From positions 1-43,590 of IMG/VR virus record IMGVR_UViG_3300035085_000018: a DNA stretch of 43,590 nucleotides; one strand, given 5' to 3'. Below are positions 9,788 to 14,745 of the stretch, piece after piece (within the stretch, counting starts at the first letter, position 1; each line of letters begins with the position of its first letter). This stretch comes from a virus. The notes beneath the pieces are model-generated. The model worked only from the letters and a program-made list of their open reading frames with translations, did no database searches and had not been told where the DNA came from. The position numbers and the translations under genes are program-made.

Positions 9788-11479
9788 ATGAACGCACCCG
9801 CCGCCGCCGCGATCGCGGCGCCCAACCTGCAGCTCATCCGGCTCGACGCGATCGCCGAGAGCCACACCCACGTCCAGGACCTGCGCCGCAAGCGCTTCGA
9901 CAAGAAGGCGCTCCAGGAGCTCGCCGCCGACATCAAGGCGCGCGGGCTGCTGCAGTTCCCGCTGGTGCGGCCGCATCCGAAGGCGACCGACAAGGTGCGC
10001 TACGAGCTCGTCGCCGGCGAGCGGCGCTGGATCGCCTCCAGGATGGCCGGCTTCAGCGAGATCTACTGCAGCGTGCGCGACGTCAGCGACGACGAGGCGC
10101 TGCAGGACCAGCTCACCGAAAACCTGCGCCGCGAAGGCCTGCACGAGCTCGAGGAGGCCGAAGGCTACGAAGAGCTGATGAAGCTGAAGAAGGTGAACGC
10201 CGACACCGTGGCGGACATGGTCGGCCGCAGCCGCAGCTACGTCTATGCGCGCACCAAGCTGCTCGCCCTGTGCCCCGAGGCGCGCGCGGCGTTCTATACC
10301 GGGCCCGACGCCGGCGGCATCGACGCCTCGAAGGCGTTGCTGATCGCGCGCATCGGCCACCACGACACCCAGCGCCAGGCGCTGCGCGACATCACCAAGG
10401 GCGAGTACAACCGCGGCCCGATGTCCTACCGCGAGGCGCACAAGCACATCCTCGCCAATTACATGCTGCGGCTGCGCGCGGCGCCGTTCGACGTGAAGGA
10501 CGAGAAGCTGCTGCCGGCCGCCGGAAGCTGCGACCAATGTCCCAAGCGCACGGGCAACCAGCGCGATCTCTTCGGCGACGTCAAGGATGCAGACGTCTGC
10601 ACGGACCCGAAATGCTTCGACGACAAGCGCCAGGCGCACTATGCCGTCGATCGCAGGAAGCTCGAGGCCCAGGGCAAGAAGCTGATCTTCGGCGAGGCGG
10701 CGAAGAAGATCTTCACCGAGTTCGAGTCGCCGAACGCCTGGTCGCGCGACCGCATGCAGGGCGGCTACGTCAAGCTCGACGAGACCACCTACGCCATGGG
10801 CGGAGGCCGCAAGGTCGCCGACGTCCTCGGCCCGGACTACGAGCCGGTCCTGATCCAGCACCCGGGCACCGGCGCCATCCACAAGGTCGCCACGCAGCAG
10901 GCGATCAGCGCCGCGGTGGCAAAGCGCGCGAAGGAGCGCCCGGCCGGCAAGAAGAGCAGGACGCAAGCGTACGCGACGCCGGCGCGGCAGCACGTCGAGG
11001 ACCGCACCGACGAGCTCGTCGGCGAGCGCGTGCTGAAGGCGGTCTACGACAAGGCGCCCAAGCTGCTGGGGCAGGACGCGCTCCGGATCCTGGCGTTCCA
11101 TCTGTGGGGCGATGTCAAGAGCATTTGCCGGCAGGATGTTCAGCGCCAGCTGGGCGCCGCAGCCGGTTGGAAGATCAAACCGTCCTATAGCGGTCGGCCG
11201 CCGAAGGAGCTCGCCAAGCTCGGCGCCAAGGACTTGCCGCGCTTCGTTCTCGCGGCGCTCGCCGCGATCGAGAGCGAGGTGGGGATCGAGGGCGCGCAGT
11301 TCCAGCGGCTCTGCAAATCCCTCAAGGTCGACCCGAAGGCGATCGAAAAGCAGGTCGCCGCCGAGCTCAAGAAAAAGGCGGAGGAGGACAAGGCCAAGGC
11401 CGCGGCGAAGAAGGCCAAGAAAAAGCCCGCCGGCAAGTCGAAGGCCGCCGCGAAGAAGAGCAAGGGGAAGAAGAAATGA
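9788..11479 (+). CDS. ParB-like nuclease-domain DNA-binding protein
   Basis: A 563-residue protein. Residues about 15-115 form a ParB/Spo0J N-terminal domain with the GERRW box (77-82, where ParB proteins have GERRxR and bind CTP) and ENLRREGLHELEEAEGY (111-127). A helix-turn-helix follows (ADTVADMVGRSRSYVYARTK, about 137-156). A zinc-binding-like segment (CDQCPKR, then CTDPKCF) is near residues 245-280, and the last 60 residues are a Lys/Ala-rich tail. Phage ParB-like proteins can act as nucleases, partition proteins or regulators; no ParA gene is nearby, so plasmid-type partition looks unlikely. Ribosome binding site GAGGT before ATG 9788. Confidence 0.8.
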   Translation: MNAPAAAAIAAPNLQLIRLDAIAESHTHVQDLRRKRFDKKALQELAADIKARGLLQFPLVRPHPKATDKVRYELVAGERRWIASRMAGFSEIYCSVRDVSDDEALQDQLTENLRREGLHELEEAEGYEELMKLKKVNADTVADMVGRSRSYVYARTKLLALCPEARAAFYTGPDAGGIDASKALLIARIGHHDTQRQALRDITKGEYNRGPMSYREAHKHILANYMLRLRAAPFDVKDEKLLPAAGSCDQCPKRTGNQRDLFGDVKDADVCTDPKCFDDKRQAHYAVDRRKLEAQGKKLIFGEAAKKIFTEFESPNAWSRDRMQGGYVKLDETTYAMGGGRKVADVLGPDYEPVLIQHPGTGAIHKVATQQAISAAVAKRAKERPAGKKSRTQAYATPARQHVEDRTDELVGERVLKAVYDKAPKLLGQDALRILAFHLWGDVKSICRQDVQRQLGAAAGWKIKPSYSGRPPKELAKLGAKDLPRFVLAALAAIESEVGIEGAQFQRLCKSLKVDPKAIEKQVAAELKKKAEEDKAKAAAKKAKKKPAGKSKAAAKKSKGKKK

Positions 11480-11847
11480 GCACCACCCGGCAGCCCGCCC
11501 TCTGCATCGGCTGCGGCTGCGACGAGCACCATGCCTGCAATCACGGCGGCACGGGCTGCTGGTGGATGCGCTTCGACGCGGCCGCCAACGTCGGCGTGTG
11601 CAGCCAGTGCGAGGACCTGGTCAAGGCCTTCGATCAGGGGCAGCGCGAGCCGTTCCTGACGCTCATCGCCGAGCGCTACTACCGGCAGGTGATGTTCCTC
11701 TACGAGGAGACGGCGAGCGCGCTCGCCTGGCTGCGCGCGCCGCAGCCCGTGCTCAAGAACTGCATTCCGCGCGAGCTGATCCTCGCCGGCCGCCTCGACG
11801 AGCTGCGGGCGGTGCTGGATCAGATCCGCGACGGCGTGTACAGCTGA
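11476..11847 (+). CDS. Cys-rich zinc-binding-like protein
   Basis: A 123-residue protein starting at an ATG that overlaps the ParB-like stop. The N-terminus has many metal ligands: CIGCGCDEHHACNHGGTGC, then CSQC. The C-terminal part is helical and ends in a conserved-looking segment (PRELILAGRLDELRAVLDQI). Genes of this type sit beside ParB-like genes in other phages, from memory of general patterns. Likely a nucleic-acid-binding or adaptor protein; function unknown. Confidence 0.65.
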   Translation: MSTTRQPALCIGCGCDEHHACNHGGTGCWWMRFDAAANVGVCSQCEDLVKAFDQGQREPFLTLIAERYYRQVMFLYEETASALAWLRAPQPVLKNCIPRELILAGRLDELRAVLDQIRDGVYS

Positions 11848-11874: not shown

Positions 11875-12423
11875 ATGAATGCACCCGCAGCAGCGCAACG
11901 CATCGAAGTCCAGATCGGCGACGCGCTGGTCACCGTTCCCGGCGAGGCGGCCGCGCTCGCCTATCTCGAGCAGCTCATCGATCAGCGCCGGCCGCTGCCG
12001 CTGTCGTTGCGCGGCAGCGCCGAGCGCCTGGACGAGCTCCGCACGCGGGCGGCCGTCCGCATCGGCGAGACCGGCCTCTACGGCACCTACGCCGGCATCG
12101 CCCGCCGCGACGACCAGGGCGGCGATCACATCCTCGAGGTGATCGAGGTGTCGACGAAGGAGATGACCTGGGAGGAGGCGAAGAAGTGGACCGAGGCCGC
12201 GGGCGGCATCCTGCCCACGCGCAAGCACGCCGCGCTCCTCTTCGCCAACGTGCCGGAGCTCTTCCTGGAGCGCTATTACTGGACCAGCGAGCCTCACGCC
12301 GAGGACGGCGAGTACGCCTGGATCCAGCGCTTCGGCGACGGCCGCCAGTACTGCAACCCCCAGTCGTACGAGTACCTGGCGGTGGCCGTCCGCAGAGTGC
12401 CCCTTCAACCATTGACCGCCTGA
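11875..12423 (+). CDS. DGR target protein 1 (variable C-terminus)
   Basis: A 182-residue protein. Residues 1-60 form a separate, probably helical domain; a short beta segment follows (GLYGTYAGIARRDD), then a C-terminal domain of the DUF1566/C-type-lectin-like kind common in DGR targets: MTWEEAKKWTEAAGGILPTR, LFLERYYWTSE, GEYAWIQ. The variable repeat covers about the last 40 residues and ends with the conserved YLAVAVRRVP. Compared with the template, codons encoding Asn have become Asp, Arg, Asp, Arg, Tyr and Tyr, and Tyr, His and Lys codons have become Cys, Pro and Glu. No signal peptide. Good ribosome binding site (GAAGGGAAAAA). What it binds is unknown; it lies outside the tail cluster. Confidence 0.9.
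   Translation: MNAPAAAQRIEVQIGDALVTVPGEAAALAYLEQLIDQRRPLPLSLRGSAERLDELRTRAAVRIGETGLYGTYAGIARRDDQGGDHILEVIEVSTKEMTWEEAKKWTEAAGGILPTRKHAALLFANVPELFLERYYWTSEPHAEDGEYAWIQRFGDGRQYCNPQSYEYLAVAVRRVPLQPLTA
12295..12397 (+). repeat. DGR variable repeat 1 (VR1)
   Basis: Aligns without gaps to the template 13548-13650 (offset 1253). The 11 mismatches correspond to template positions 13557, 13581, 13582, 13590, 13596, 13597, 13602, 13606, 13612, 13620 and 13623, all A in the template; replaced by G (5), C (3), T (2), and so on in the target. The last 25 bases are identical to the template, the expected initiation-of-homing region. Confidence 0.95.
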
Positions 12424-12434
12424 GAGAGAGCGAC

Positions 12435-12887
12435 ATGAAAAAGAAGTCCGGTTCACCCCGCGCGCCGAAGGCGCGCGTCGCCGCAAAAAAATCCCCCGCC
12501 GCGAGCACGCCAGTTGCGGCGGCCGCGCCGATCGAGATCCCGGCGATCGGCGCCGTCTTCCGTGGCGGGAAGTACGCGGGGATCTCGCTCGAGAATGAGC
12601 GCCGCGTGGCGCTGGTGCTGCTCGCCGGCGAGATCGAGGGCACGCACGCCGAGGCGCAGGCCTTCGCCAAGAAGCAGGACGGCGTGCTGCCCTCGCGCAT
12701 CGACCAGCTGGTGCTGCTCAAGAACCTGAAGCGCGAGTTCAAAGCGCGCTGGTACTGGTCGGACGAAAAGCACGCCGAGCTCGGCGAGTACGCCTGGATC
12801 CAGCACTTCGGCGACGGCGACCAGGACTTCCTCCACCAGTCGAACGAGTACCTGGCGGTGGCCGTCCGCAGAGTGCCGATTCAATAA
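12435..12887 (+). CDS. DGR target protein 2 (variable C-terminus)
   Basis: A 150-residue protein with a Lys/Ala-rich basic N-terminus (about 1-30) that target 1 lacks, followed by the same kind of DUF1566/C-type-lectin-like domain: AQAFAKKQDGVLPSRIDQLV, then FKARWYWSDEKHAELGEYAW. The variable repeat runs from residue about 113 to the conserved YLAVAVRRVP near the end. Asn codons of the template read Leu, His, Asp, Asp, Asp and Leu here, and Tyr and Lys codons read Phe and Glu. It starts 11 bases after the stop of target 1 (GAGAGAG as ribosome binding site), so the two are paralogues diversified from one template. Confidence 0.9.
   Translation: MKKKSGSPRAPKARVAAKKSPAASTPVAAAAPIEIPAIGAVFRGGKYAGISLENERRVALVLLAGEIEGTHAEAQAFAKKQDGVLPSRIDQLVLLKNLKREFKARWYWSDEKHAELGEYAWIQHFGDGDQDFLHQSNEYLAVAVRRVPIQ
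12459..12477 (+). repeat. Inverted repeat downstream of VR1
   Basis: CGCGCGCC (12459-12466), loop GAA, GGCGCGCG (12470-12477): a perfect 8-bp stem starting 62 bases after the end of VR1, inside the start of target gene 2. Phage BPP-1 needs a hairpin or cruciform downstream of its variable repeat for efficient homing; this and the one at 12926-12947 are candidates for the same role. GC-rich DNA makes chance stems likely, so confidence is limited. Confidence 0.4.
12771..12873 (+). repeat. DGR variable repeat 2 (VR2)
   Basis: Aligns without gaps to the template 13548-13650 (offset 777). The 10 mismatches correspond to template positions 13557, 13558, 13581, 13590, 13596, 13602, 13606, 13608, 13609 and 13623, all A in the template. 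Seven of these sites are also changed in VR1, four of them to a different base, showing independent rounds of mutagenesis. The last 25 bases are identical to the template. Confidence 0.95.
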
Positions 12888-12899
12888 CTCGATCGCCGC

Positions 12900-13313
12900 A
12901 TGAGCCCAGATCTCTTCGGGGGTGAAGCGCCGGCGCGAGCCGGCGCTCGCGCGCAAATTTTGCACAGCGACACCGATCTGTACCGCGCGGTCAGCGACCT
13001 CTCGAAGTTCATCGCGCGCGCCGTGCTCCACCTGCGCCGCGACCTCAAGCCCACCTACGGCAAGCTCCTCGTCGAGGAGTCGGTCTGGATGGGCGTGGTC
13101 GTGCGCCGCGCGAACATCGCGCGCGACCAGGGCAAGCTGCGCCACTTCGACGAGCTCCTCGAGCAGCTCGAGATCATCCAGTTCACGCTGCGCACGCTCT
13201 GCGAGCTCAAGTTCCTGCCGCACAGCACCTTCGCGCAGTCGCTGCCGATCACCGGCTCGGTGGGCCGGCAGGCCACCGCGCTGCGCAAGACTTTCGATGC
13301 ACCCGCACCGTAG
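12900..13313 (+). CDS. avd: DGR accessory variability determinant (Avd)
   Basis: A 137-residue, basic, all-helical protein of the four-helix-bundle (23S rRNA intervening-sequence protein-like) family: DLYRAVSDLSKFIARAVLHL, RRANIARDQGKLRHFDELLE, QLEIIQFTLRTLCELKFL. Avd forms a pentamer that binds the reverse transcriptase and template RNA and is essential for mutagenic homing in BPP-1 (established knowledge). It lies between the second target and the template repeat, the canonical place. The start at 12900 has no strong ribosome binding site, and the first 20 residues lie over an inverted repeat. Confidence 0.9.
   Translation: MSPDLFGGEAPARAGARAQILHSDTDLYRAVSDLSKFIARAVLHLRRDLKPTYGKLLVEESVWMGVVVRRANIARDQGKLRHFDELLEQLEIIQFTLRTLCELKFLPHSTFAQSLPITGSVGRQATALRKTFDAPAP
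12926..12947 (+). repeat. Inverted repeat downstream of VR2
   Basis: AGCGCCGGC (12926-12934), loop GCGA, GCCGGCGCT (12939-12947): a perfect 9-bp stem with a four-base loop, 52 bases after the end of VR2 and inside the start of avd. It parallels the stem found 61 bases after VR1. Candidate homing-enhancing cruciform; unproven. Confidence 0.45.
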
Positions 13314-13547
13314 CCTGTTGCGCGACCGTCACGGCGGCCGCGCCCGCGCATTGTTCACTCTGGTCGCGCCGCTGGGCGCCGAGGCCCCGGCCGCGGCGTC
13401 CACCGACATGCGCACAACGGATACCGCCGGCCAGCTGCCGCTCTTCGCGGCGGCCGGGCCCGCGTCCGGCGCAGTCGCCGCGCCGATCGGCCTGCAGCAG
13501 CACGCAGGCCTTCGGCCCGGCGACGTGGATTGCGCGAATGACGGCAT

Positions 13548-13650
13548 CACGCCGAGAACGGCGAGTACGCCTGGATCCAGAACTTCGGCAACGGCAACCA
13601 GAACTACAACCACCAGTCGAACAAGTACCTGGCGGTGGCCGTCCGCAGAG
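13548..13650 (+). repeat. DGR template repeat (TR)
   Basis: The 103-base template copied by the reverse transcriptase. By my count 29 of its bases are A, and read in the frame of the targets it contains seven AAC codons, the typical design that allows the widest range of amino acids after adenine mutagenesis. The final 25 bases match both variable repeats exactly; right after the last G the template reads CGAA while both variable repeats read TGCC, which would let the system tell donor from recipient. The 351 bases between avd and the reverse transcriptase (13314-13665) hold only this element and short uncertain frames. Confidence 0.95.
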
Positions 13651-13665
13651 CGAAGCGGTGCGGGA

Positions 13666-14745
13666 ATTTCTTATACCGAGCTGCTGGCGGCCGACCGCGA
13701 TTGCCGCCGCGCCAAGCGCAACACCCCGGCGGCGCGCGCCTGGGAGGCGAACCTCGAGGAGAACCTGCGCGCGCTGCACGAGGACCTGAACGCGGGCGCC
13801 TACGCGCCCGGGCGCTCGATCTGCTTCGCCATCACGCGGCCCAAGCGCCGCGAGGTCTTTGCCGCCGGCTACCGCGACCGCGTGGTCCATCACGCGTGGT
13901 ACCGCCACGTCGGCCCCCGCTTCGAGCGCGCGTTCATCGCCGACAGCTTCGCCTGCATCCCGGGCCGCGGCACCCTCGCGGCCGCTCGCCGCCTCGAGGC
14001 GATGGTGCGCGCCGCCACGCACAACTGGAGCCGGCCGGCCTCCTACCTCAAGTGCGACCTCGCCAACTTCTTCCCCAGCATCGACAAGCGCATCCTGCTC
14101 GCGCGCCTGGAGCGCCGGATCCCCGAGCCGTTCTGGCGCGACCTCGCCGCGCGCATCGTCCTGCACGATCCGCGCGAGAACGTCGAGCGCCGCGGCGACC
14201 CGCGCCAGCTCGCGCTGATCCCGGCGGCGAAGAGCCTCTTCGGCCGCCCGGCGCACCTGGGCCTGCCGATCGGCAACCTGAGCAGCCAGTTCGGCGCCAA
14301 CGTCTACCTCGACGGGCTCGACCAATTCGTCAAGCACACCCTGCGCGCGCGCCACTACGTGCGCTACGTCGACGACTTCATCCTGCTGCACGACTCGCCG
14401 CGCCAGCTCAACGCCTGGCGCGCCGCGATCGAGGCCTTCCTGCCCGCCGAGCTCGGCGTGCAGACGAACCCGGCCAAGACCGTCCTGCAGCCGCTCAGCC
14501 GCGGCGTCGACTTCGTCGGCCAGGTCATCAAGCCCTGGCGCCGCACGCTGCGCCGGCGCACCCTCAATGAAGCCCTGACCCGCCTCGCGACGACACCGCT
14601 CGAGCGCGTCCCGCGCGCCGCCGCGAGCTACCTCGGCCTCGCTCGCCAGGCAAGCCACAGCCGCACCGACCGGGCGCGCATCGCGAACGTCGTCAGGCGG
14701 CGGGGCTTCTCCGTCGATCACCAACTCACGAAGGCTTACGCATGA
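13666..14745 (+). CDS. DGR reverse transcriptase
   Basis: About 359 residues from the first homologous-looking residues (ISYTELLAADRDCRR). Motifs in order: RPKRREVFAAGYRDRVVHHA, KCDLANFFPSID (catalytic Asp of motif A), LGLPIGNLSSQFGANVYLDG (the DGR-specific GxxxSQ signature), and RYVDDFILLH (catalytic YVDD at 14365-14376). These mark it as a DGR rather than group II intron or retron enzyme. There is no ATG, GTG or TTG in frame between the template repeat and the conserved start; I place the start at an ATT (13666). The nearest normal start is a GTG at 13525, which would run the gene through the template repeat. The stop overlaps the next ATG (ATGA). Confidence 0.92.
   Translation: MSYTELLAADRDCRRAKRNTPAARAWEANLEENLRALHEDLNAGAYAPGRSICFAITRPKRREVFAAGYRDRVVHHAWYRHVGPRFERAFIADSFACIPGRGTLAAARRLEAMVRAATHNWSRPASYLKCDLANFFPSIDKRILLARLERRIPEPFWRDLAARIVLHDPRENVERRGDPRQLALIPAAKSLFGRPAHLGLPIGNLSSQFGANVYLDGLDQFVKHTLRARHYVRYVDDFILLHDSPRQLNAWRAAIEAFLPAELGVQTNPAKTVLQPLSRGVDFVGQVIKPWRRTLRRRTLNEALTRLATTPLERVPRAAASYLGLARQASHSRTDRARIANVVRRRGFSVDHQLTKAYA

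Follow-up and report, generated by a model that had tools for sequence, protein, structure and literature searches.

What is known about the mechanism of diversity-generating retroelements (DGRs) comes almost wholly from Bordetella phage BPP-1 (mtd-avd-TR-brt), where the RNA follows the template repeat (TR). There, avd is directly followed by TR, and a structured RNA (Rfam Phage_DGR) occupies a 144-nt spacer between TR and the reverse transcriptase (RT) gene brt; besides this RNA element, the spacer holds the adenine used for priming (PMC12875486). The DGR described here comes from a 43,590-nt viral sequence (IMG/VR record IMGVR_UViG_3300035085_000018), the whole of which is called the window below. 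It resembles BPP-1 in the target-avd-TR-RT order, in differences confined to template adenines, in the predicted C-type-lectin fold of the targets and in a homologous RT. In both systems the 3' end of TR has a complementary strand in the structured RNA, with UGGUC at that strand. The layout, however, differs: in the window the structured RNA lies between avd and TR, the RT gene abuts and overlaps TR, and instead of one tail protein there are two targets, situated in the integrase-side non-structural region.

Some of these features have precedents. TRs overlapping the end of an annotated RT open reading frame (DiGReF group 3) have been described, as have DGRs with two to four variable repeats (VRs), Pseudomonas and Burkholderia hosts among them (Schillinger 2012, PMC3521204). 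That study regarded the arrangement as irrelevant to the mechanism and, in the sections considered here, mentions no structured RNA, helix or frame preservation. In the tentaclins of gut phage DGRs, one TR also serves two phage targets with C-type lectin domains, but in one target the VR is near the 5' end, whereas the window has paralogous targets, each with its VR at the 3' end (PMC10743442). The DGRs of Pseudomonas phage Haboob, Burkholderia phage Magia and Shewanella phage QDWS share with the window the RT clade (about 61% identity to the window RT), the gene order, two A-only VRs and an RT-15 RNA before TR, but their phage backgrounds differ and the targets are divergent. Magia is annotated with a potential DGR target. 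Two-target DGRs and the TR/RT overlap are already known; the RNA 5' of TR and its helix look new in a literature comparison that is incomplete.

One template serving two target genes

The locus comprises the following features.

11875–12423, plus strand: target gene 1, 182 aa, predicted C-type-lectin-fold protein with VR1 at the 3' end (open reading frame, weak Pfam Lcl_C match, AF2 model)
12295–12397, plus strand: VR1, 11 differences from TR, every one at a template A
12435–12887, plus strand: target gene 2, 150 aa, predicted C-type-lectin-fold protein with VR2 at the 3' end (AF2 model, weak Pfam Lcl_C match)
12771–12873, plus strand: VR2, 10 differences from TR, every one at a template A
12900–13313, plus strand: Avd, accessory protein (PHROG 3206 "Avd protein of DGR", 3e-07; Pfam bAvd below cutoff)
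13309–13544, plus strand: RT-15 structured RNA (Rfam RF03018), filling the gap between avd and TR
13548–13650, plus strand: TR, 103 nt with 29 A, also read in the RT frame
13666–14745, plus strand: conserved part of the RT with YVDD (RVT_1, PHROG 1423), the frame continuing upstream through TR

The first-pass annotation, made from the sequence alone, had called this region a complete DGR, with the above TR and its 29 adenines, seven AAC codons in the template and all differences on A. An ungapped alignment of TR with both VRs returned the same figures: 21 of 21 differences fall on template A and none on any other base, and the seven AAC codons appear when TR is read in the VR frame. The VR1 match runs 4 nt further upstream (107 nt), adding one A-linked mismatch, and the 43.6-kb record holds no further TR/VR copy. 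The VRs had been described as the last 103 bases of their genes; they are near the 3' ends but not literally terminal, since VR1 ends 23 nt and VR2 11 nt before the stop codon. A BPP-1-like hairpin just 3' of the VR was not found in the window, where the best stem after either VR has 4 bp; among relatives, stems of at least 7 follow the VR in 59 of 288 cases (3.6 expected).

The reading frame of target gene 2 starts with ATG at 12435 and runs through 12887. For both targets the AF2 models (pLDDT 84 for target 1 and 90 for target 2) match the Lcl C-terminal domain 8q4e, the best PDB hit of target 1 in Foldseek, as well as C-type lectins. Thus, both proteins are predicted to carry the VR at the C terminus of a C-type-lectin fold. 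The RT translation contains YVDD and IGNLSSQ, corresponding to the YxDD and IGxxxSQ-like motifs of the DGR clade, and its best PDB match is the bacterial RT entry 8ub7 (E 3e-36), which we take to be BPP-1 bRT. The Avd assignment relies on the PHROG match, the Pfam bAvd score being 17.7 bits against a cutoff of 40. Avd and a YVDD-containing RT are both present, as annotated, although Avd precedes TR and does not follow it. The description as complete holds for the two targets with one template, the A-only differences, the DGR-clade RT, Avd and the lectin folds, but it had overlooked the RT-15 RNA. These data support the interpretation of the locus as a DGR, belonging to a temperate tailed phage, in which a single template serves two target genes.

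RT-15 RNA and its pairing with the template

The window RNA scores 95.2 bits with the RT-15 covariance model (gathering cutoff 82) and is hence a member of the family by the Rfam criterion. The Rfam description does not name RT-15 as a DGR RNA. In all 22 family loci scanned, the window included, RT-15 occupies the gap between avd and TR; the region is conserved across 75 non-redundant loci. As a broad class-level search returned only the seed genome, genomes were searched genus by genus; above-cutoff matches had a related RT nearby in 49 of 49 cases and a VR in 48 of 49, versus none of the eight sub-threshold matches with an RT or VR nearby.

The Rfam model stops at the start of TR and lacks a long-range helix to the 3' end of TR, which we identified by covariation.

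13354–13362, plus strand: 5' strand of the helix, TTCACTCTG, without a partner in the Rfam model
13646–13654, plus strand: 3' strand of the helix, CAGAGCGAA, the 3' end of TR and the first linker bases

In the window eight of the nine positions pair, the mismatch being A 13357 with C 13651. One helix pair (78-402) has the highest corrected mutual information among 16,653 pairs; it is paired in 52 of 53 cases, compared to a mean of 11.5 under the tree null, where 52 is reached in 0 of 4000 simulations, and nine of ten joint changes are double-sided. This is the only helix position that covaries overwhelmingly. Its neighbours k=4 and k=5 have moderate support (P = 0.008 and 0.03), the CUG/CAG core does not vary, and the pairing strand of the window is compensated (CUCUG:CAGAG).

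One could suppose a standard DGR of the BPP-1 type, in which the essential RNA is still 3' of TR, buried in the coding region of the RT, and RT-15 is a mere leader or regulator. The precedent is the BPP-1 spacer itself, which holds the RNA element with its Rfam Phage_DGR match and the priming adenine (PMC12875486). However, Phage_DGR was not found in the window, and there is no structured spacer RNA between TR and RT, the gap to the start of RT homology being 15 nt in the window and only 7–52 nt across the family. At four-fold sites, RT codons 0–50 show a conservation of 0.31–0.48, no higher than the 0.45 of the rest, compared to 0.63–0.75 in the TR part; extra synonymous (Sp-like) constraint in the 5' end of the RT gene, looked for at these sites, was not found. 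Upstream of TR lie both the noncoding block with strong conservation and the strand that pairs with TR. We therefore consider this arrangement improbable. Judging from position, co-occurrence and the helix, and for RT binding from the parallel with BPP-1, RT-15 is probably the RNA bound by RT-Avd, and cDNA would be primed at the 3' end of TR.

Reading frame of the reverse transcriptase

The linker between TR and the RT has at least nine lengths, from 5 to 32 nt, and its phase is constant in 160 of 160 loci; the linker exceptions were checked by hand and, where checked, frame or linker exceptions proved to be misassignments of the motif or of the longest frame. Over the final 60 nt the RT frame is free of stops, whereas the other two frames are stopped in 33 and 39 loci. 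Thus, the RT frame runs back through the 3' end of TR, so that the template, read in another frame, also codes for RT.

An alternative is that the RT starts at a rare codon just after TR, the overlap being an annotation artefact. GC-rich genomes yield long open frames by chance, a few relatives (L081, L109, L138, L158) do have an ATG after TR, and for phage QDWS the annotated RT start lies 3' of TR. Yet no ATG, GTG or TTG follows TR in 136 of the 160 loci, the window among them; the phase is kept at every linker length; an open ATG in the RT frame exists in 158 of 160 loci, compared to 43 of 160 in the control frame; and in lineages with a stop inside TR a start codon follows that stop. A start just after TR thus seems unlikely.

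In the window the in-frame candidate starts are ATG 13408 and GTG 13525. Two codons were rejected as starts shared across the family: a conserved AUG in RT-15 opens the RT frame in no more than 62 loci and lies out of frame in another 62, and at the position of GTG 13525 most relatives have GTA in the alignment.

Adenine-linked variation and a possible mechanism

The window DGR is one of a large family of DGRs in beta- and gammaproteobacterial prophages. Two or more VRs near the RT were found in 146 of 164 related loci, a count in which distal VRs may be underrepresented, as those beyond the fetched flanks were missed. With neutral scoring, 330 TR/VR segments of relatives contain 4124 mismatches at A against 162 at all other bases (mismatch rate 42% versus 0.7%); A-specificity is assessed from these figures, and A-only counts from the seeded search were set aside because the seeding favours A. 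Between near-identical prophages, VR differences number 188 at A and three at other bases, so the A-linked variation that the annotation had expected of populations is seen in the family. Where two prophages share identical RT, TR and target flank, 11–19 A-linked VR differences separate them; such almost exclusively A-linked divergence beside an identical TR and RT indicates, from sequence comparison, that the family is active. An exact A-to-N pattern scan of IMG/VR gave no other alleles of the window VRs.

The DGR of the window phage is presumably active as well. It might instead be a relic of past A mutations that no longer works: its RT-15 score is the lowest among the loci scanned, and its Avd match is weak. 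Nevertheless, the RT is open with YVDD, neither VR has a non-A mismatch, and RT-15 is above the cutoff with a compensated pairing strand, so that we find a relic very unlikely. Plain paralogous repeats that diverged by chance at A-rich positions, as the relatedness of the two targets (38% identity) might suggest, are refuted by the mismatch pattern, since the probability of all mismatches falling on A is 1.7e-7 for VR1 and 8.5e-7 for VR2 (~1e-13 as their product), and the 330 segments of relatives show an identical pattern.

The explanation that we propose, and hold to be highly probable as a whole, is a temperate-phage DGR with a template RNA made of RT-15 and TR, a helix closing TR, and an RT frame through TR. 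RT-15 and then TR, in one transcript region, would form the template RNA; the pairing of one strand of RT-15, 5' of TR, with the 3' end of TR would make TR a closed loop. RT and Avd would bind RT-15 as a complex, and cDNA synthesis would begin at the 3' end of TR beside the helix, with template adenines misread. The mutated cDNA would then replace VR1 or VR2 at the ends of the two lectin-fold genes. The RT gene follows TR without a spacer, its frame extending back through the 3' end of TR.

Going further, we lean towards RT-15 being a circularly permuted structured domain of the template RNA, which from the 5' side pairs with the 3' end of TR by the covarying helix, brings in RT-Avd and either places the primer there or supplies it. 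Under this permutation the 3' side of TR would be freed, so that the RT gene could have moved onto a dual-coding template. If so, TR encodes the target protein in one frame and the N terminus of the RT in another.

With the RNA ahead of the template and a covarying helix to the template's 3' end, this widespread prophage family would distinguish the essential element, a structured domain that pairs with the end of the template, from the side on which that domain lies, which would be incidental. Rfam RT-15, whose name records only its association with RTs, gains a likely role, and the compact cassette of avd, RT-15, TR and RT (~1.8 kb) may offer a second setting for the priming model, independent of BPP-1.

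Repeats and genes of the window element

According to the first-pass annotation, 11875-14745 holds a complete diversity-generating retroelement (DGR) with two variable genes, whose variable repeats (VR1, VR2) differ from the template repeat (TR) at 11 and 10 positions, all 21 on template A. When TR, VR1 and VR2 were realigned without gaps, the same counts were obtained; our recount likewise gave 29 A among the 103 TR bases, and the seven AAC codons claimed for the template are present in the VR frame.

Features of the window DGR
11875-12423, plus strand, target gene 1 (AlphaFold mean pLDDT 84, C-type-lectin fold)
12295-12397, VR1, 11 differences from TR, all at A (ungapped realignment)
12435-12887, plus strand, target gene 2 (AlphaFold mean pLDDT 90, C-type-lectin fold)
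12771-12873, VR2, 10 differences from TR, all at A (ungapped realignment)
12900-13313, plus strand, accessory protein Avd
13309-13544, RNA family RT-15 (RF03018; Rfam, 95.2 bits, cutoff 82)
13548-13650, TR, 103 bases, 29 A (ungapped realignment)

The chance of all mismatches falling at A is 1.7e-7 for VR1 and 8.5e-7 for VR2, and no further repeat copy beyond these three was found in the window record. The only stop-capable TR codons in the VR frame are one AAG and one AGA, and the template permits about 4.7e16 protein variants. The best fold match of both predicted target models is the Legionella Lcl C-terminal domain. The reverse transcriptase (RT) contains YVDD, and its closest solved structure is a reverse transcriptase, PDB 8ub7, which we take to be that of Bordetella phage BPP-1, the carrier of the reference DGR (mtd-avd-TR-brt).

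The record is a virus contig whose minus strand encodes the primase, tape measure, head and portal proteins. The DGR is encoded on the plus strand, adjoining a ParB-like gene and an integrase; thus, the targets are away from the tail genes, whereas in BPP-1 mtd adjoins them. The ParB-like protein (9788-11479) is encoded upstream on the same strand, and a small gene (11476-11847) with an Xre/MbcA/ParS C-terminal domain match (4e-06), possibly unconnected to the DGR, precedes target 1.

Related DGRs and their activity

RT searches yielded a family set of 80 IMG/VR loci, 80 genome loci and three annotated phages. Where the TR adjoins the RT, there are two VRs in 122 loci, three in 23 and four in one; 14 loci have one VR and four have none, several of these being cut close to the cassette. 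With scoring neutral as to base, 330 TR/VR segments gave 4124 mismatches at A and 162 at other bases, per-site rates of 42% and 0.7%. Some loci (L004, L009, L068, L138, L140 and others) have a third or fourth VR at a distance of kilobases from the cassette, as much as ~7.6 kb; these VRs too are A-only and mark distal targets served by the same template.

In most relatives, the upstream targets are one orthologous group and the downstream targets another. The closest relatives of target 1 are downstream-type targets of other phages, and the upstream target of the window phage may, on this similarity, be derived from the downstream type.

In pairs of prophages whose RT, TR and 200-nt target flank are identical, there are 11 to 19 A-linked differences in one or both VRs; summed over all pairs compared, there are 188 differences at A vs 3 at other bases. 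This is direct natural evidence of activity for the family, not for the window phage. In two pairs (L050/L094 and L042/L063) one VR is rewritten and the other is identical, hence the two targets appear to have retrohomed independently of each other. About 30 nt past the VR ends of relatives, stems of at least 7 bp with short loops occur in 59 of 288 downstream regions (3.6 expected), which could be homing hairpins or terminators; the window has no such stem downstream of its VRs.

Probable translation of the RT through the template

In the 160 loci with both TR and RT, the linker from the TR 3' motif to the start of RT homology measures 5 to 32 nt and keeps a single phase (six motif misassignments were settled by hand). 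Over the last 60 nt, stops are found in none of these loci in the RT frame and in 33 and 39 in the other two; an open in-frame ATG is present in 158 loci in the RT frame vs 43 in the control frame, and in 136 loci no ATG, GTG or TTG follows the TR. Given the constant phase, the open frame and the usual lack of a later start, translation of the RT most likely begins inside or upstream of the TR. The start varies by lineage, being inside the TR in many Pseudomonas prophages and upstream in the Burkholderia type; in-frame candidates in the window are ATG 13408 and GTG 13525.

Pseudomonas-type TRs (e.g. that of locus L012) have GATGAT in place of the AACAAC of others, hence fewer diversifiable A, and the RT has no start codons in these loci other than the resulting ATGATG, so that diversity may be traded off against RT translation. 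The first RT codons show no extra silent-site constraint, evidence against a concealed RNA of the BPP-1 type at this place.

The RNA between avd and the TR

The avd-TR gap is strongly conserved, with a length of ~230 nt in the window and mostly 140-180 nt in relatives. RT-15 was found in all 22 family loci scanned, its end coinciding with the TR start. To reduce circularity, genomes were searched for RT-15 without use of the RT: all 49 above-cutoff matches fetched (12 of them from ten genomes chosen earlier by RT) had a family RT within ~1.5 kb, and 48 had a VR; no RT was near any of eight sub-threshold matches.

Folding an alignment of 53 non-redundant loci recovered the RT-15 helices and, in addition, a helix between the TR 3' end and an RT-15 strand that the Rfam model leaves unpaired; we lengthened this helix by hand. 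Its window strands are 13354-13362 and 13646-13654, with 8 of 9 positions paired. The seventh position (k=6) is paired in 52 of 53 loci, with all four Watson-Crick types (shuffle mean 22, maximum 32). Independent change on the RT tree gave a mean of 11.5 paired, and none of 4000 simulations reached 52. Of the ten joint changes, nine are double-sided. By corrected mutual information this pair ranks first of 16,653, above RT-15's own helices, and in a larger set the pairing is kept in 94 of 97 unique sequences. Its neighbours have moderate or no support (k=4, P 0.008, C-G in the window and A-U in most relatives; k=5, P 0.03), and the CUG/CAG core is invariant.

BPP-1 has a comparable complementarity, between the spacer strand AGGUGGU and the TR 3' end, and the adenine two bases past this strand is reported to be the priming site (A56). 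According to PMC12875486, priming is by an internal spacer adenine, within the 3' junction of the TR. The layouts differ: in BPP-1 avd abuts the TR and the Rfam Phage_DGR RNA lies between TR and brt, whereas RT-15 lies between avd and TR, so that the structured RNAs are on opposite sides of the TR.

Both DGRs with more than one VR and TRs that overlap annotated RT ORFs were already listed in 2012 (PMC3521204), two-target phage DGRs were reported in 2023 (PMC10743442), and the record of Burkholderia phage Magia already carries an annotated potential DGR target. Among the papers covered by our literature search, none connected RT-15 with DGRs and none described this helix; an earlier link is possible. 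The window DGR is a further member of a known family, and it is the RNA layout that makes this family a variant.
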